A DNA stretch of 64,000 nt, taken from the NCBI RefSeq assembly GCF_003346815.1, contig NZ_CP031217.1, positions 1,116,001 to 1,180,000 on the forward strand, read 5' to 3'. Below the pieces are notes generated by a model that saw only the letters and a list, made by a program, of their open reading frames with translations, made no database searches and was not told where the DNA came from. This stretch comes from Halarcobacter bivalviorum (lineage in GTDB: Bacteria; Campylobacterota; Campylobacteria; Campylobacterales; Arcobacteraceae). Of the stretch, positions 4,485 through 61,255 are shown piece by piece (position 1 is the first letter of the stretch; each line of letters opens with the position of its first letter). Both the position numbers and the translations under genes were made by a program.

Positions 4485-5114
4485 ATGGAAAAAACATTTA
4501 TGGAAGCTATGGATTTTAGACATGCTTGTAAAATTTTTGATGAGACTAAAAAAATCTCAAATGAAGAGTTAGAGTATATTTTAGAAGCTGGTAGAAAATC
4601 TTGTTCTTCTTTTGGTATGGAACCTTGGAAGTTTTTAGTTATCACTAATAATGAATTAAGAGAGAAGTTAAAAAAAGTGTGTTGGGATCAACCACAAGTT
4701 ACTACTTGTTCTCATCTTGTTATTATTCTTGCAGCTATTGAAGATGTAAAACCAGAGTCTGGTGTACCAAGAAAAAAATTTGGAAGAAGAGATATGCCTC
4801 AAGAGAAATATGATTTTTATTTAAATCTTTATGCAGAGCATTTAAAAGAGACTCTATCTACTGATGAGAATATCTATGCTTGGACTTCAAAACAGTCTTA
4901 TATTGCAGCTTCAAATATGATGACAGCAGCAGCAGTAAGAGGAATTGATTCTTGTCCTATTGAAGGTTTTGAAAAAGAGAATGTAGAAAAAATCTTAGAA
5001 CTTGATACTTCAAAATATCAATTATCTTTAGTATTACCATTTGGATATAGAGTTAATCCACAATCAGAGCAGTTAAGAGAAAAATTAGAAGATATTGTAG
5101 AGTATATAAACTAA
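4485..5114 (+). CDS. NAD(P)H nitroreductase family protein
   Basis: A 209-residue FMN flavoenzyme of the nitroreductase fold. The N-terminal FRHACKIFDETKKISNEEL carries the FMN-phosphate Arg/His pair. SSFGMEPWKFLVIT is the dimer/FMN segment (nearly always SSxNxQPWxF). Near the C-terminus GIDSCPIEGFEKENVEKIL and LPFGYR are the usual closing motifs. It reduces nitroaromatics, quinones or similar electrophiles with NAD(P)H. It is translated from an AAGGAAAAAT site 9 bases after the ABM gene and followed 17 bases later by the OYE gene, as part of the electrophile cassette. Confidence 0.9.
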   Translation: MEKTFMEAMDFRHACKIFDETKKISNEELEYILEAGRKSCSSFGMEPWKFLVITNNELREKLKKVCWDQPQVTTCSHLVIILAAIEDVKPESGVPRKKFGRRDMPQEKYDFYLNLYAEHLKETLSTDENIYAWTSKQSYIAASNMMTAAAVRGIDSCPIEGFEKENVEKILELDTSKYQLSLVLPFGYRVNPQSEQLREKLEDIVEYIN

Positions 5115-5131
5115 TTATATAAGGAATAAAT

Positions 5132-6163
5132 ATGAGTTTACTTTTAAGTCCTAGTAAAATAGGAACTTGCCACTTACAAAATAGAGTTATTATGGCTCCT
5201 ATGTGTATGTATAAAAGTGATAATAGTGCAGAAGTTAAACCTTTTCACTCCTTTCATTATACTTCAAGAGCAATAGGTAAAGTTGCTTTGATAATTGTTG
5301 AAGCAACAGCTGTAGAGTCAAGAGGAAGAATCTCTAATAATGACTTAGGTTTATGGCAAGACTCTCAACTTGCAGGGCATAAACTACTTGTAGAGCAAGC
5401 TCATGAATTTGGTTCAAAAATAGCTATTCAACTGGCTCATGCAGGAAGAAAGAGTTTAGTAAAAGAGACAACTCCTGTTGCTCCTTCTTCAATAGCTTTT
5501 GATACGAGTGGTGGTTTTAAAACTCCAGAAGCTTTAAGTTTAGAGCAAATAGCTTTAATAAAACAGCAGTTTTTAGATTCAGCAAAAAGAGCACAAGAAG
5601 CTGGTTATGATATCTTAGAACTTCATGCTGCCCATGGATATTTACTTTGTGAATTTTTGTCCCCTTTAACAAATAAAAGAGATGATATTTATGGTGGAAG
5701 CTTAGAAAATAGATGTAGATTAACCCTAGAAATTGCAAAGCTTTTAAAAGAGCAAATAGCTTTACCTCTAATTGTTCGTATTTCTGCAAGTGAATGGAAA
5801 ACAGCTGGTTGGGATATAGAAGATTCTATTTATTTATCAAAAGAGTTAGAAAAACTTGGAGTAGATTCTATTCATGTTTCAGCAGGTGGAAATCAAAAAG
5901 AGCCAGATTTAATGCCAGAACTTTTACCTTTATATCAATGTGATTATGCAAAAAAGATAAAAGAAAATATAAATATACCTGTAATTGCTGTAGGTTTAAT
6001 AACTACGGCAAAACAAGGAGAAACTCTTTTAGCGGAGAAAACTTGTGATTTTGTAGCCTATGGAAGAGAACTTTTAAGAGATGCAAATTTAGTTTTCAAA
6101 TTAGCAAAAGAACTAAATCAAAAAGAGTTAATAGATAACTCTTATCTTCGAGCATATCTATAA
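5132..6163 (+). CDS. Old Yellow Enzyme, YqjM/NamA type
   Basis: A 343-residue FMN-dependent ene-reductase. The segment VIMAPMCMY (Cys25, Tyr27) marks the thermophilic-like YqjM class, where the Cys tunes FMN redox potential. Further markers are QLAHAGRKS near residue 105, LHAAHGYLLCEFLSPLTN (about 168-185) with the substrate-binding His pair, and the C-terminal AYGRELLRD with the phosphate-binding Arg. Family members reduce activated C=C bonds of enones and maleimides, and some reduce nitro groups. It is the last gene of the cassette and its stop codon lies within the terminator hairpin. Confidence 0.92.
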   Translation: MSLLLSPSKIGTCHLQNRVIMAPMCMYKSDNSAEVKPFHSFHYTSRAIGKVALIIVEATAVESRGRISNNDLGLWQDSQLAGHKLLVEQAHEFGSKIAIQLAHAGRKSLVKETTPVAPSSIAFDTSGGFKTPEALSLEQIALIKQQFLDSAKRAQEAGYDILELHAAHGYLLCEFLSPLTNKRDDIYGGSLENRCRLTLEIAKLLKEQIALPLIVRISASEWKTAGWDIEDSIYLSKELEKLGVDSIHVSAGGNQKEPDLMPELLPLYQCDYAKKIKENINIPVIAVGLITTAKQGETLLAEKTCDFVAYGRELLRDANLVFKLAKELNQKELIDNSYLRAYL

Positions 6164-54840: not shown

Positions 54841-54863
54841 TCTTTTTATTATTAAAAAATGAG

Positions 54864-54893
54864 AAAAAGCTTCACTTTTTTGTGAAGCTTTTT
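54864..54893 (+). terminator. Strong rho-independent terminator
   Basis: AAAAAGCTTCAC (54864-54875) and GTGAAGCTTTTT (54882-54893) form a perfect 12-bp stem with a TTTTTT loop and a long U tail. Confidence 0.9.
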
Positions 54894-54897
54894 TTTT

Positions 54898-54943
54898 CTT
54901 AAATTTATCTCAAAATGTTATAACAATTTGAGATAAATTTAAG
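54898..54943. repeat. 46-bp near-perfect palindrome at a promoter
   Basis: Arms 54898-54914 and 54927-54943 are perfect 17-bp reverse complements (CTTAAATTTATCTCAAA / TTTGAGATAAATTTAAG). The 12-base centre ATGTTATAACAA is itself palindromic apart from the one A/A pair, so 22 of 23 pairs match. It begins right after a terminator and ends 10 bases before a TATACT -10 box (54954-54959), covering the -35 region of the small DNA-binding gene. Confidence 0.85.
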
Positions 54944-54953
54944 TTTATTCTTG

Positions 54954-54959
54954 TATACT
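54954..54959 (+). promoter_or_regulatory. -10 box of the small HTH gene
   Basis: TATACT in CTTGTATACTTCCG, 33 bases before ATG 54993, directly downstream of the palindrome. Confidence 0.5.
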
Positions 54960-54992
54960 TCCGTCCCCAAAAACAGCAGAGATAGGAGAATA

Positions 54993-55301
54993 ATGAGAAT
55001 TACAATAACAAATAATGAATTTAATGCACTACAAAAAATATTAGTTCAAAATGATATGTCTTTATATAATAGAATAAATGAAGAGTTTCAAAAATCAGTT
55101 TTATCAAGAACAAGTAAAAAGATTAAAGCAACAGTAAAAGCAAATAATGCAAAAAGAAAAAAGAGTAAAAATGCAGTAGTAAATGCTGTAAATATTTTAA
55201 GATTAGAAAATAGAGATATAACTGTTTATAGTGTTGCAAAAACTGCTGAAATTAGTTATAACACTGCTAAAAAATACAAAGACTTTATACTAGCTCAATA
55301 A
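54993..55301 (+). CDS. Small basic HTH-type protein, 102 aa
   Basis: ATG 54993 has GATAGGAGA upstream; the in-frame ATG at 54951 overlaps the -10 box and is less likely. The protein is strongly basic in the middle (SRTSKKIKATVKANNAKRKK). The C-terminus DITVYSVAKTAEISYNTAKK has the spacing of a helix-turn-helix (xVAxxAxISxxTxxKY). The family is unrecognised. The 46-bp palindrome in its promoter could be its own operator. It is convergent with the DUF5718 gene. Confidence 0.75.
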   Translation: MRITITNNEFNALQKILVQNDMSLYNRINEEFQKSVLSRTSKKIKATVKANNAKRKKSKNAVVNAVNILRLENRDITVYSVAKTAEISYNTAKKYKDFILAQ

Positions 55302-55391
55302 TATTTCAAAATGGTTTAACAATAAAAAATAGCTTTAGATTACTATATTTAGGGAAGTTTGTTGTTGTTTAACTTGGATATAACAAAATGA

Positions 55392-55420
55392 ATTAGCTTC
55401 CAACAAAGTTGGAAACTAAT
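55392..55420. terminator. Hairpin between the HTH gene and DUF5718
   Basis: ATTAG-C-TTCCAAC pairs with GTTGGAA-A-CTAAT around AAA, with one C/A mismatch. Serves the convergent pair; the minus-strand tail is TTCATTTTG. Confidence 0.55.
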
Positions 55421-55431
55421 ATAAAAAAGAA

Positions 55432-56274
55432 TTACTCTACTATTTGATGCAGCTTACTACATTTTGATAGATGTAAGTCCATACCTGACATATCTTGGAT
55501 TATATCTTCAAAAGAGTGGAAGTGTGCATCATACACATAAACAAAAATTTCATCCCCTTTTTCTAAGAAGTTATGTTTTCCAAAATCTGTATATGCAGTT
55601 GCTCCAGCAGCTATTAAAAGACCTTTGTACTTACTCATGTCTTGAATAAAAGGTTTAAGCTCTTCTAATGGTCCCATATCTTCTTGAGTATTGAATTTAT
55701 CAATCATCCAATCTTTTAATTGATTAAAGAAATATGAGTATGATTTAACAGCACTAACTGTTCCATAATCTTTTAAGATACCATCTCTTCTCACAAAAGA
55801 AGCAATATGATATTTACTTAGAATACCATCTTCTTCAAAAGAATCAATCTCTATTAAATCAGAAGCTAATCCTTTTGAATTTGGACCCCAGTTCTTTTTT
55901 GTACTTAATTTATTACCATCTTGTACTCTATTTGAACAGTCATTAAATGCACCAAAAAGTTTTGGAACTATATCCACTAACTTTTCATTTTCATATACAA
56001 AATCACAAAGTAAAGCAACTTCAGCTTCAACTTGTAATTTATCCATATTATTATGGTTAATAATATCAGTACTAATTGGATATTCACCTAAAAAGCTATC
56101 ATGATTTGGAATATAAAAAGGAAAAAGTCCTTTTGGAGCATCTTTCTCTTTAGTTTCAATAACAGAAAATTCATCTGCCTCACCAGCTTCACCTAAATGG
56201 TTTGCAAAATTACCTGCAACACCAAACCCTAAATAATCTTTTAATTCTTCTAAATTTGCTTGGTTTTTATTCAT
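55432..56274 (-). CDS. DUF5718/FAH-like fold protein
   Basis: A 280-residue protein. LGFGVAGNFANHLGEAGEAD at the start, KLQVEAEVALLCDFVYEN, and NCDCSNR-like FGAFNDCSNRVQDGNK resemble fumarylacetoacetate-hydrolase-type enzymes (ExE metal motif as EAEVAL), and the whole is what I recall as DUF5718 in Campylobacterota. FAH relatives cleave or decarboxylate acylpyruvates and oxaloacetate. It is the last minus-strand gene of the CoA-ester region, 258 bases after the second lyase, with an AAAAGG ribosome site. Whether it takes part in that pathway is unknown. Confidence 0.7.
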   Translation of the reverse strand: MNKNQANLEELKDYLGFGVAGNFANHLGEAGEADEFSVIETKEKDAPKGLFPFYIPNHDSFLGEYPISTDIINHNNMDKLQVEAEVALLCDFVYENEKLVDIVPKLFGAFNDCSNRVQDGNKLSTKKNWGPNSKGLASDLIEIDSFEEDGILSKYHIASFVRRDGILKDYGTVSAVKSYSYFFNQLKDWMIDKFNTQEDMGPLEELKPFIQDMSKYKGLLIAAGATAYTDFGKHNFLEKGDEIFVYVYDAHFHSFEDIIQDMSGMDLHLSKCSKLHQIVE

Positions 56275-56532: not shown

Positions 56533-57516
56533 TTAAGAGAAAAATCTTTTTTCTACTTCATCCATTAATTTTACACCAGAGTATTTAGCTCTTTGTACTA
56601 ATTCCCAGAAATATCTGTAAGTTGCTCTATCGTGTAACTCACCATCATATTGGATTGGTCCCCACTCAGCATCTTGTGCATTTAATAAAATATTTTGTGC
56701 AGCTTCTAACTCAGTAAAGTCTGGTTTCATAGCATCAACAATTGCTTGTACTTGTGTTGGGTAAATTGACCACATTCTCATAAATCCAAACTCGTTTCTT
56801 GCTCTTTCAGCATCTTTATAAGTTTGGTATGGGTTTTTAAGATCTAATGTTACGTTGTGACAAGGAATAACATGATTTTGAATAGCTGCTTGTGCTACTC
56901 TTGCTTTTGCTGCACCAATTAATCTATGATCAAATTGCCCTGGACTTCTCATGTTAGATGCAGGAATTGCACCTTGGTATCCTGATACAAAATCCATAAG
57001 ACCGAAATCTAATACTTGTAGCCATGGTAATGTAGCAATTTTCTCTACATCTTGTAATGCACCATGAGTTTCAATTAAGATATGAATTGGAATCTCTCTA
57101 CTAATACCAGCTTTTTTTGCTACTTCTTGAATATATTCAACTTGAGTTTTTACATCTTCATAAGAAGTAGATTTTGGTAATGTAATATATGCTAATTTCT
57201 CACCAGCACCTGGTACAAGAATATCAACATCTTGTCTCCAATCTGGATGAGAGAAATCGTGGATTCTAGTTCCAGCCATAGCATATGGATTTTCATCAGA
57301 ATTTACAACTCTAACGATCATTTCTGCATGCTCAACTTCTTTACCAGTCTCAGCTCCATCTTCACAATCACAAGTGATATCGAAAACAGGTCCAAGTTTT
57401 CTTTGCATTTCAAAACCTTTTTTGATTAGTTTTTCGCTTCCTGCAAAGTGCTCACAAGTAGGAATAATCGGTAAAGATTTTCCAGATTCAAATAGTGCTT
57501 CATTAGGGTGTGTCAT
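56533..57516 (-). CDS. CitE/HpcH-type CoA-ester lyase (second copy)
   Basis: A 327-residue TIM-barrel lyase of the malyl/citramalyl-CoA lyase superfamily. The start resembles the beta-proteobacterial subgroup (IIPTCEHFAGSEKLIKKGFE). DITCDCEDGAETG is the substrate/metal helix. Metal ligands are Glu149 in LIETHGALQDV and Asp175 in LDFGLMDFVSG. MRSPGQFDHRLI, RARNEFGFMRMWSIYPTQVQ and HDRATYRYFW follow. It probably cleaves or forms a 3-methylmalyl-, malyl- or citramalyl-CoA ester. A 147-base gap with a hairpin separates it from the hydratase gene, so it may be expressed differently. Confidence 0.85.
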   Translation of the reverse strand: MTHPNEALFESGKSLPIIPTCEHFAGSEKLIKKGFEMQRKLGPVFDITCDCEDGAETGKEVEHAEMIVRVVNSDENPYAMAGTRIHDFSHPDWRQDVDILVPGAGEKLAYITLPKSTSYEDVKTQVEYIQEVAKKAGISREIPIHILIETHGALQDVEKIATLPWLQVLDFGLMDFVSGYQGAIPASNMRSPGQFDHRLIGAAKARVAQAAIQNHVIPCHNVTLDLKNPYQTYKDAERARNEFGFMRMWSIYPTQVQAIVDAMKPDFTELEAAQNILLNAQDAEWGPIQYDGELHDRATYRYFWELVQRAKYSGVKLMDEVEKRFFS

Positions 57517-57663: not shown

Positions 57664-58725
57664 TTATTTTTGAGTCTTTCTTTTTGGAATGATTACTGTG
57701 TAATCTAAATCAAGTACTACATTTGGTAGATACTTACCATCTTTATCTTTTGGTGACTCAATCTCTTCTGGTCTTTGATTCTTAACAGCAATTGTTCTTA
57801 ATCTTAATAAACCTATATCATCTCTTTTATGTTCAATTACATCTAAAACTTCTGTATATGCATAGATAGTATCTCCTGCATATGTTGGATTAGCGTGTGC
57901 ACCAGAGTTAATAGCATACATCCATTGTGCATTTTGTAAACCATTAAATGAAATTGCTCTAGCCATAGAGATAACAATTCCACCATACATTAATCTCTGC
58001 CCCATAGGAGTAGATTTCATCATGTGGTCATTGAAGTGAACCTTCGCATTGTTTTGGTATAACTTAGTTGCTAAAGTATGGTCACTATTATCAACTGTAA
58101 TACCCTCTGGGTGATTTAGTCTTTCACCTTTTTCATAATCTTCAAAGAAGAAGTTTCCACCAGATGCGAAGACATCAACACATTTAATCTCAGGAATATT
58201 AATCTCTTCACAAATAGGAGTTGCTTCTGCAAAAGTAGGAACTTCTTTAATACCAGTTAAAGTCTCCTTATCTTTTTTATGAACCATAACCCATCTTTTG
58301 AAGTTAAGTACTTCTGCTCCATTTTGGTTTACACCAATAGAGTGAACATAAACAACTCCAGATTTTCCATTTGAATTCTCTTTTAATCCAATTACAGTCG
58401 AAGTCATAGAAACTGTATCTCCTATATAAACTGGATTAGGAAAAGAAATCTCTGCATAACCTAAGTTTGCAATTGCATTTAATGAAATATCTTGTACTGA
58501 TTTTCCAAATGTTAAGTGGAACATTAATACATCATCAATTGGTCTTTTTTCATATCCCATCTCAGTTGCAACAACATCAGAAGAGTGAAGTGCAAATCTA
58601 GAACCAGTGAAAGCAATGTATAAAGATACATCACCATCAGTGATTGTTCTAGGAAGAGGGTGAACTATTTTTTGTCCAATTGAAAAATCTTCAAAAAAGT
58701 TTCCCATATTAATCTTACTAGACAC
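57664..58725 (-). CDS. mch: Mesaconyl-CoA hydratase (Mch-like, MaoC double hotdog)
   Basis: Hydrates mesaconyl-CoA to 3-methylmalyl-CoA (or dehydrates it). The GTG start at 58725 has AAGGAG six bases away. The 353-residue protein has two MaoC hotdog halves. Blocks that match the Rhodobacter-type Mch include GNFFEDFSIGQKIVHPLPRT, SLNAIANLGYAEISFPNPVY, GKSGVVYVHSIGVNQNG, LATKLYQNNAKVHFNDHM, MYGGIVISMARAISFNGLQN and the Asp/His-bearing INSGAHANPTYAGDTIYAYT. It is 10 bases downstream of the ligase fusion. An itaconyl-CoA or related methyl-branched substrate cannot be excluded. Confidence 0.9.
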   Translation of the reverse strand: MSSKINMGNFFEDFSIGQKIVHPLPRTITDGDVSLYIAFTGSRFALHSSDVVATEMGYEKRPIDDVLMFHLTFGKSVQDISLNAIANLGYAEISFPNPVYIGDTVSMTSTVIGLKENSNGKSGVVYVHSIGVNQNGAEVLNFKRWVMVHKKDKETLTGIKEVPTFAEATPICEEINIPEIKCVDVFASGGNFFFEDYEKGERLNHPEGITVDNSDHTLATKLYQNNAKVHFNDHMMKSTPMGQRLMYGGIVISMARAISFNGLQNAQWMYAINSGAHANPTYAGDTIYAYTEVLDVIEHKRDDIGLLRLRTIAVKNQRPEEIESPKDKDGKYLPNVVLDLDYTVIIPKRKTQK

Positions 58726-58735
58726 TACTTTCTCC

Positions 58736-61255
58736 TTACTTGTTAAATAGGTTTTGACCTAAAGCTTTATATGTTTCATAAAGTGTAATCATTTTTTTAG
58801 CCCATTTAATTCTTGAACCATCAACAAGTTTATTGTTGTGCATAATTACTTCTTTACCATCTTTTTTAGCTTGCTCATATGAATTAATCATCTCTTCATA
58901 ATCTTCAACTTCAGCTTGTTTTGGAGTAAAGATATCATTAATATATTCAATTTGTACTGGGTGGATTAATGATTTACCATCAAATCCTAAGTTGAATGCA
59001 TCTTTAGTTGAATCTTCACAAGCAAATTCATCATGTACATCAAAGTGTGGTCCATCAATAACTGTTTTACCATATGCTTTTGCTGCTAATGCAACTTGCG
59101 ATAGGTAATTAAACATAGCTTTTGAACCTTTTTTGATATCAATATGTAATCTGTTAGCTAATTTATTTGAACCAACAACTACAACTTCAACTCTTGGACT
59201 AGCTGCACAAATCTCTTGGATATTTAATACAGATAGTGGAGTTTCAATCATAATCATTAATGATAACTCAGGGTTAATCTCATCAATTAATCTAACTGCT
59301 TCTAATACATCTTCTTTTGTATCAATTTTAGAGAATAATAAACCATCTAATTCAATCTCTCTTGCAAGCTCTAAATCTTTTTGTAAATCTTCACTTCCTA
59401 AGTTATTGATTCTTAGAACTCTTTCAGACTCTCCAAATCTACAACCTTGGTCTTTGTAAACTTCTCTAATAACTTCTCTACCAACAGCTCTTTGCTCATG
59501 TAAGATAGCTTCAAGATCGAATATAACAGTGTCCGCAAGTACAGATTTAGCTTTCTCTACATTATGTTTATTGTATGACGGTACGAATAACATAGATCTT
59601 CTAGCTTTATATTCAATTACTTCTTCACCTCTTGCATGTGCACTTTCTAGCTCATGTAGATTCTTTACAAGTTGTTTTCTTAGAACTTTTCCATTTTTAG
59701 TTCTTGGATAATCTGCCATTGCAAAAATCTTCTTTGGTGCTTTATATTTTGCAAGATTATCTTGAGAGAATTTAAGAACCTCTTCTTGTTGAGCTTCAGT
59801 TAATTCCTCATGTCCAATTACAGCAATCGCCACTAATGTTTTATCTTTAGCTAAGTCAAATCCAAATGCTACACAATCTGCTACTAAAGGATGAGTTTTT
59901 ACAACTCTTTCAACTTCGTGTGGTGATACTCTAAATCCAAATGTATTGATAATATCATCTTTTCTACCAATGAACCAGATATAACCATCTTTATCTCTTT
60001 TTGCATAATCTCCTGTAAAGAAGTATCCATCATGCTTAGCTTTAGCTGTTTCATCTTCAAGCTGCCAGTACTCTAAAAATAGACCTGGATCATCAATACC
60101 GATACAAATCATACCTTCTTCTTCAACACCAACTTCTTGTAGTGTATCAGGGTCAAGTAGTTTAACTGTGTGACCTGGTTGAACGAATCCTGCACTTCCT
60201 GGTCTAATTGGATTATTTACAGAGTGAGAAATATAGTATGAACACTCAGACATACCAATTGCTTCAAAGATATCTTGTTTAAATCTATCTCTCCATAATT
60301 CAATCATCTCAGTTGATAAATGCTCTCCCGCAGACATACAATATCTTAAAGATGGACAATCTTCAATTGTAAAATCTGTTTTTTGGATAATTTGTCTATA
60401 AATCGTTGGTACACCAATGAAAATAGTACATTTATGCTTTTTAATTAAATCAATCCAAGTTCCAGCATCATTTGAACCTTCATATGCAATAACAGTATGT
60501 CCATTAAATAATGGATCCATTAATGCAGAACCTAATACATATGTCCAGTTGAACTTACCAGAGTGCATGATTCTATCATTCTCTTTAAAGTTAAACCAAT
60601 ATTCAGTAGCAGGAGTTCTTCCAACTAATGATCTATGCGAGTGTAAAACACCCTTTGGAAAACCAGTTGTTCCAGATGTATATACTAAATATGCAGGCTC
60701 ACCAGCTTTTGAATTGTAGTGGTTAGGTGTTTTATCTGCAGTTTTTAAAATATCATTTAATGCATATACATTAATCCCTTTAGGCTTTTTTAAATCCTCA
60801 ACACTATCAGTTGCTGCAACGATAATTGTTTTTAGGTTATCTAAGTTCTCTAAATATGGAACTAAGTTTTCATACATAGAAGCAGATAAAACAATAGCAC
60901 TTGCTTGTGAATCTTCTGCTAAATATTTAACTTCTGAACCACTTAAAAGTGTTGATGTAGGAACTGCGATAATTCCTGCTTTAATAGCTCCAAAAAATGA
61001 AATAGGATAAGCTAAAGAGTTTTTTAAACAAACTAAAACTCTATCTCTTGGCCCGATTCCAATTGATGTAAGGAAGTTACAAATTTGGTCAGATTTTTCT
61101 GCTAACTCTTTATAAGTTATTTCATCAGTTCCTAATTTATCATCTTCAATAATCATTGCTGTATTATTTTCGTTTTTTCCCCCAAGGTGTGCAGATGTAC
61201 AAGCAACACCGATATTTAAAAATTCAGGTACTTCAATTTCAATAGTTGAACTCAT
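58736..61255 (-). CDS. Acyl-CoA synthetase fused to a CitE-like domain
   Basis: An 839-residue fusion. Residues 1-535 are an ANL adenylate-forming enzyme: P-loop YTSGTTGFPKG (192-202), GMSE (333-336), YFFTGDYAKRDKDGYIWFIG (411-430), and the catalytic Lys523 in YPRTKNGKV. Residues about 552-835 are a CitE/malyl-CoA-lyase-like barrel (RRSMLFVPSYNKHNVEKA to the end). The catalytic set is altered: the expected DLED is DLEA (580-583), Glu671 is kept in MIETP, but the second Mg ligand Asp is Lys698 in GSNKLANRL. It presumably activates a dicarboxylate such as mesaconate, itaconate or citramalate to its CoA ester. The barrel may be non-catalytic. Confidence 0.9.
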   Translation of the reverse strand: MSSTIEIEVPEFLNIGVACTSAHLGGKNENNTAMIIEDDKLGTDEITYKELAEKSDQICNFLTSIGIGPRDRVLVCLKNSLAYPISFFGAIKAGIIAVPTSTLLSGSEVKYLAEDSQASAIVLSASMYENLVPYLENLDNLKTIIVAATDSVEDLKKPKGINVYALNDILKTADKTPNHYNSKAGEPAYLVYTSGTTGFPKGVLHSHRSLVGRTPATEYWFNFKENDRIMHSGKFNWTYVLGSALMDPLFNGHTVIAYEGSNDAGTWIDLIKKHKCTIFIGVPTIYRQIIQKTDFTIEDCPSLRYCMSAGEHLSTEMIELWRDRFKQDIFEAIGMSECSYYISHSVNNPIRPGSAGFVQPGHTVKLLDPDTLQEVGVEEEGMICIGIDDPGLFLEYWQLEDETAKAKHDGYFFTGDYAKRDKDGYIWFIGRKDDIINTFGFRVSPHEVERVVKTHPLVADCVAFGFDLAKDKTLVAIAVIGHEELTEAQQEEVLKFSQDNLAKYKAPKKIFAMADYPRTKNGKVLRKQLVKNLHELESAHARGEEVIEYKARRSMLFVPSYNKHNVEKAKSVLADTVIFDLEAILHEQRAVGREVIREVYKDQGCRFGESERVLRINNLGSEDLQKDLELAREIELDGLLFSKIDTKEDVLEAVRLIDEINPELSLMIMIETPLSVLNIQEICAASPRVEVVVVGSNKLANRLHIDIKKGSKAMFNYLSQVALAAKAYGKTVIDGPHFDVHDEFACEDSTKDAFNLGFDGKSLIHPVQIEYINDIFTPKQAEVEDYEEMINSYEQAKKDGKEVIMHNNKLVDGSRIKWAKKMITLYETYKALGQNLFNK

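Follow-up and report, generated by a model that had tools for sequence, protein, structure and literature searches.

A conserved 26-bp dyad and weaker sites around difH suggest a terminus-marking system in Arcobacteraceae

A near-perfect palindrome in the chromosome of Halarcobacter bivalviorum, together with weaker sites related to its inner part, suggests on the basis of sequence comparison a previously undescribed system that would mark or organize the chromosome terminus in these bacteria. The conserved inner dyad of the palindrome looks like a DNA operator at the own promoter of the adjoining gene, which encodes a small helix-turn-helix (HTH) protein, and not like an RNA hairpin. We consider it probable that this protein is an autoregulated terminus-domain protein, which would be similar to MatP/matS in its working and unrelated to MatP. 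The genome is a single contig of 2,684,688 bases, and the window, by which we mean the whole stretch of 64,000 nucleotides that was analyzed, comprises bases 1116001–1180000. The features of the locus are listed in Table 1.

Table 1. Features of the palindrome locus (window coordinates)
Feature	Position	Strand	Basis
Terminator-like hairpin of the upstream flavin reductase gene	54861–54896	+	15-pair stem, T run
46-bp palindrome	54898–54943	.	22/23 pairs, zero spacer
26-bp dyad, proposed operator	54908–54933	.	Conserved in 17/17 loci; best whole-genome match
Promoter: TTTAAGTTTA (resembles the C. jejuni −35 motif) and −10 box TATACT (54954–54959)	54938–54959	+	Sequence, conservation
Shine–Dalgarno sequence AGGAG	54984–54988	+	Sequence, inference
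102-aa HTH protein, proposed terminus-domain DNA-binding protein	54993–55301	+	Orthologues, model, site distribution
Degenerate downstream site D1	55302–55331	.	12.7 bits; position fits the arrays of relatives
Degenerate downstream site D2	55366–55395	.	14.7 bits

The palindrome is the best in the window for arms of 23 bp, the runner-up pairing at 18/23 positions. Its 22 pairs, reported in the first-pass annotation and recomputed here, exceed the 20/23 that was the best result among 300 windows simulated with matching dinucleotide composition. The order of terminator, palindrome, and −10 box given in that annotation was also borne out, as the palindrome starts 2 bases past the terminator-like hairpin and ends 10 bases ahead of TATACT. 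The −35 motif of C. jejuni, to which the promoter is compared in Table 1, is TTTAAGTnTT in the available text of PMC3824568. The many dispersed copies that had been envisaged as the sign of a repeat element did not appear: the palindrome occurs once genome-wide, indicating that it is not a dispersed or mobile repeat. The identification of the palindrome with difH was rejected, because it does not match TTGAAAACTATAATTTTCAAA and is not beside xerH, and difH lies 178 kb away.

In 17 of the 17 loci compared, from three genera, the center of the dyad lies 68–72 bp upstream of the start codon of the HTH gene (L011 was kept outside this set, since its contig begins at that point). Positions 1–13 on each side are conserved in these loci, with the consensus TTTCAAATTGTTATAACAATTTGAAA for the inner 26 bp, whereas dyad symmetry is not maintained at positions 14–23. 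Conservation is absent from the left outer arm, and most of the loci have TTTAAG or a close variant in the right one, as a conserved promoter-like element. The 46-bp length, remarked on earlier as far beyond that of a usual operator, is real in the window and is a local extension of the 26-bp dyad; as a conserved dyad, only the inner 26 bp stand.

The counts of paired bases in the dyad approximate the expectation from the make-up of the columns, indicating conservation of the two halves at the level of sequence and not of pairing, as for a DNA site and not an RNA stem. The earlier suggestion of a hairpin in a read-through transcript was accordingly abandoned, the stem being without covariation across the relatives. 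More distant genera have a sequence of the TTTCATTTGGATATATCC or TTTCATTTCGTTTAAATGAAA type ahead of the orthologue; the operator sequence thus differs along with the protein, indicating that site and protein have changed together. The sequence features looked for in an autoregulatory operator, namely a position at the gene's own promoter, a fixed distance, and a conserved sequence, were found in all of the loci. These results suggest that the dyad is an autoregulatory site, as was among the first proposals, and it is the strongest predicted site of the HTH protein in the genome.

The start and the sequence of the 102-aa frame are kept in the relatives; a 116-aa frame with a TTG start finds no support in them. 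The AlphaFold model of the protein is all-helical with a C-terminal HTH (mean pLDDT 93.4), and this predicted HTH is in line with the earlier impression that the protein looks DNA-binding. Residues 47–102 align to SCO3201 (4cgr_A; Z 7.8, rmsd 2.5, 56 residues), a match that is not decisive, and the modeled HTH part resembles, likewise not decisively, the tri-helical domain of TetR. Searches of Pfam, PHROGs, and NCBIfam gave weak matches only, with no curated family above its cut-off, and Pfam up to E 10 gave two sub-threshold HTH models and none for MatP, RTP, or Tus. Among solved structures searched by sequence, the LacI headpiece alone was returned (E 0.3), and Foldseek found no match at E 0.001 in the PDB and viral models. 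The protein search gave 0 matches in phages and 1 in plasmids. An orthologue is present in 39 of the 104 family genomes (E 1e-38 or better), three more genomes gave weaker matches, and the gene is missing from 62 at E 0.001, indicating that the family can do without it.

Distant homologues were found upstream of the replication protein on the Hydrogenimonas plasmid pISO32_2 and on small contigs with Rep_3 initiators. An inovirus-like contig from IMG/VR (L068) carries a distant HTH homologue and a Zot-type gene (258–602 and 5037–5572). The earlier idea of a plasmid- or phage-like control site therefore has some basis in these homologues, which also fit a replicon-control protein and to that extent count against the terminus reading. 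A comparison of the flavin-reductase locus in 16 genomes showed several that lack the gene or have it at another place, and no insertion ends.

In 15 of 21 loci of other genera, some of them near-duplicates, the start is ATT, ATC, or ATA with an AAAGG-type Shine–Dalgarno sequence about 8 nt before it (L018, L019, L020, L021, L036, L040, L041, L042, L056, L057, L058, L059, L060, L063, and L066), and in 14 of these, in-frame ATG, GTG, and TTG codons are absent upstream. A conserved non-AUG start is known for infC. Its presence in the orthologue suggests that expression may be very low.

The terminus was located by means of difH, using query sequences from the available text of PMC2731167 and PMC3325230. 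In the source genome, difH lies at genome position 1348773, beside xerH. Adjoining xerH was seen at 15 of the 17 difH-like loci checked, the source genome included, and difH was taken as genuine on this ground; the difH-like sequence of G088 has no xerH within 1.5 kb, and a second candidate lies 10 kb off. GC skew in the window tracks the orientation of the genes and is no guide to the terminus position, and in sampled stretches the sign of the skew changes between about 1.25 and 1.34 Mb, near difH. In the 11 complete genomes with an orthologue and a located difH, the HTH gene lies 31–195 kb from difH, distances that genomes of one genus owe largely to common ancestry. G003 has two copies of the gene on one contig, one to either side of difH.

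A sequence-only profile made from 27 operator and array sites was run over the whole genome, and 49 of 59 rows were kept for the source genome after the own locus and opposite-strand duplicates had been removed. At 12 bits or more, 11 of 16 sites lie within 180 kb of difH compared to 2.1 expected (p = 5.7e-7, own locus excluded), although this and the following p-values treat related genomes and neighboring sites as independent and are thus too optimistic. The signal fades at a threshold of 8.8 bits, where 15 of 49 sites lie within 180 kb and 6.6 are expected. The terminus sites, which include those at genome positions 1187611, 1316192, 1397656, 1449986, 1450608, and 1523009, are weak, with about 10–20 bits compared to 32 for the operator. 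In addition, seven sites of at least 12 bits were counted in 521 kb of terminus DNA of the source genome and none in 320 kb sampled elsewhere, and none of 200 column-permuted profiles reached the seven real terminus matches.

For the complete, gene-bearing genomes G002, G011, G060, and G088, 15 of 18 sites of at least 15 bits lie within 250 kb of difH (2.9 expected, p = 5.8e-10). In contrast, for G007, G014, G065, and G068, which are without an orthologue (G065 and G068 were scored as without, their only match being a distant paralogue at E 1.4e-10), 2 of 9 sites lie within this distance (1.5 expected). Near difH, these control genomes show single sites at +114 kb (G014) and +133 kb (G068) and a pair at +45 kb (G065). 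Counts for relatives and other genera exclude operator, downstream, and in-gene matches at the own locus, opposite-strand duplicates, and one match on G065:C2. Sites concentrated round the terminus, as looked for in a terminus system, were thus found, and the genomes without the gene were negative.

For the g13 motif, 20 of 26 sites in its own genomes lie within 400 kb of difH (7.3 expected, p = 3e-7), and for the g6/g3 motif, 13 of 39 lie within 250 kb (6.0 expected, p = 0.004). The clustering is thus clear with the first motif and weaker with the second, for which it is not significant in G020 taken alone (KS p = 0.22). In G117 the clustering is no more than broad. At the terminus of the source genome, neither of these two foreign motifs is enriched.

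Of the 14 candidate sites in the source genome, 12 are inside coding frames and two overlap the edge of a frame. An aminotransferase gene at 1449.8 kb holds three sites; G011 has one at the same place and G002 one 60 bases on. No polarity about difH was found for 28 sites from five genomes (p = 0.69), the sites being mostly near-palindromic and their orientation uncertain, and none was significant in other genera (p = 0.67 and 0.16). Sites that lie in genes and show no significant polarity are more in keeping with a structural mark on the region than with control of promoters.

Beyond the 3′ end of the gene, 11 of 18 loci carry one or more additional sites that score at least 9 bits, and 5 of the 18 have three to four downstream sites at a spacing of about 70–98 bp. 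The gene beyond the downstream array varies by locus and is convergent in some, indicating that the array is not the promoter of a constant target. Both these downstream sites and the clustering of weaker sites at the terminus had been missed in the first-pass annotation. In the downstream arrays at L013 (1870–2160), L008 (1891–2170), and L043 (8369–8482), full dyads and asymmetric sites of the TACAAAATGTAATATTTCAAAATGATATAAC type follow each other in alternation. In L193 (G088:C1), two sites at about 1431533 and 1431626, 93 bp apart and 24 kb from the gene, resemble a second array. Tandem small RNAs arising from the downstream sites were also considered, as a TATAAT is possible in D1, but were dropped because this box is not kept in the relatives and the spacers look unconserved.

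The convergent neighbor in the window is a DUF5718 protein (55432–56274, minus strand). An 839-aa fusion of an AMP-binding acyl-CoA synthetase with an HpcH/HpaI (citrate-lyase-like) aldolase is encoded at 58736–61255 (minus strand), adjoining a mesaconyl-CoA hydratase (57664–58725) and another HpcH/HpaI protein (56533–57516).

The main rival to a terminus organizer is a replication fork trap, in which the protein would stop overrunning forks at sites in the difH region and one site would double as the operator. RTP/Ter of Bacillus subtilis and Tus/Ter of Escherichia coli each consist of a small DNA-binding protein with sites in the terminus, one of them at its own promoter; the sites of RTP, which has an operator at its own promoter, are 30-bp imperfect inverted repeats. 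The proposed system shares with both the small protein, the terminus sites, and the site at its own promoter, and a trap would also suit the location of gene and sites alike around the terminus and the asymmetric sites within the downstream arrays. It differs from both in that no Pfam match to RTP or Tus and no significant site polarity across difH, in the source-profile or other-genus sets, were found, and the majority of its sites are near-palindromic. We regard a fork trap as unlikely. We are equally doubtful of a plasmid- or phage-derived regulator of the ordinary local kind, which would control its own gene only, with the distant matches arising by chance. The genome does hold a single strong site, homologues do occur by rep on small plasmids, with one more on an inovirus-like contig, and many relatives are without the gene; however, the distant matches gather at difH only where the gene is present and only with the lineage's own motif, and the control genomes, permuted profiles, and foreign motifs make a purely local regulator unlikely.

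A domesticated plasmid partition-type protein, for which operator and array would together act like a centromere in positioning the terminus and the scattered sites would be secondary, seems distinctly improbable. The evenly spaced arrays beside the gene and the plasmid homologues would agree with it, but the array is decayed or absent in several loci, including that of the window, while the scattered sites persist, and no partition ATPase was found adjoining the gene. An RNA hairpin, a cruciform, or a mobile repeat is barely credible, since what speaks for it is a near-perfect palindrome in one genome, against the lack of pair covariation, the unconserved outer arms, the single copy, and the absence of an Rfam match at the locus, on which the RNA hairpin was rejected.

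For the terminus organizer that we favor, the protein would bind the 26-bp dyad via its C-terminal HTH. From the position and conservation of the operator, which overlaps the upstream part of the promoter, the protein would be expected to limit its own expression. Weaker copies of the dyad, mostly in genes, would be occupied over roughly 300–500 kb round difH, and this occupancy would mark the terminus region as a domain. The protein may act by condensing or retaining the terminus or by coupling it to segregation or division, in the manner of matS-bound MatP in E. coli. We infer the binding to the sites, the self-repression, and the effect of terminus occupancy on the chromosome from the sequence comparisons.

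The MatP/matS system of E. coli likewise combines a small site-specific protein with short dyads spread over a few hundred kb round the terminus, matS being described in the available text as 13 bp in length with 23 copies in 800 kb (PMC3330122, PMC3116907). The two systems differ in that the proposed protein is predicted to be an all-helical HTH protein, the matS consensus given there, GTGACRNYGTCAC (PMC3116907), is unrelated to the 26-bp consensus, and a strong copy at the own promoter and a downstream array are present here. MatP (PF06303) was found in none of the 104 Arcobacteraceae genomes, the E. coli control being positive. As MatP is absent from the family and the window protein is not MatP, the system would resemble MatP/matS in its working without belonging to it.

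The tri-helical HTH is also shared with SlmA, a TetR-type nucleoid occlusion factor (structure match Z 5.8, tied with many TetR proteins). SlmA has palindromic sites that avoid the terminus, whereas the sites here gather there, and a length of 102 aa leaves no room for the ligand domain of TetR proteins. XerH/difH of Campylobacterota shares a palindromic AT-rich sequence in the terminus region, but difH is a separate sequence from the palindrome.

To our knowledge, among site-specific systems restricted to the terminus domain, only MatP/matS has been well studied. Among the papers searched, we found none joining Arcobacter and MatP, none on a terminus-organizing system of these bacteria, and nothing on chromosome organization in Campylobacterota. 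That further terminus systems would be found is an expectation voiced in the available part of a review (PMC3116907).

Overall, we judge it narrowly probable that the Arcobacteraceae have their own terminus organizer, independent of MatP, in the form of an HTH protein possibly recruited from a plasmid or phage replicon, which is autoregulated and acts on degenerate sites in genes over several hundred kb round difH, protein and site having changed together. If true, this would be a second terminus-marking system, unrelated to MatP and in another phylum, suggesting that such systems evolved more than once and that a terminus marker may derive from a plasmid or phage protein. Because the gene is present in some species and absent in close relatives, natural comparisons exist, and the system would provide a directly testable handle on chromosome organization in Campylobacterota.
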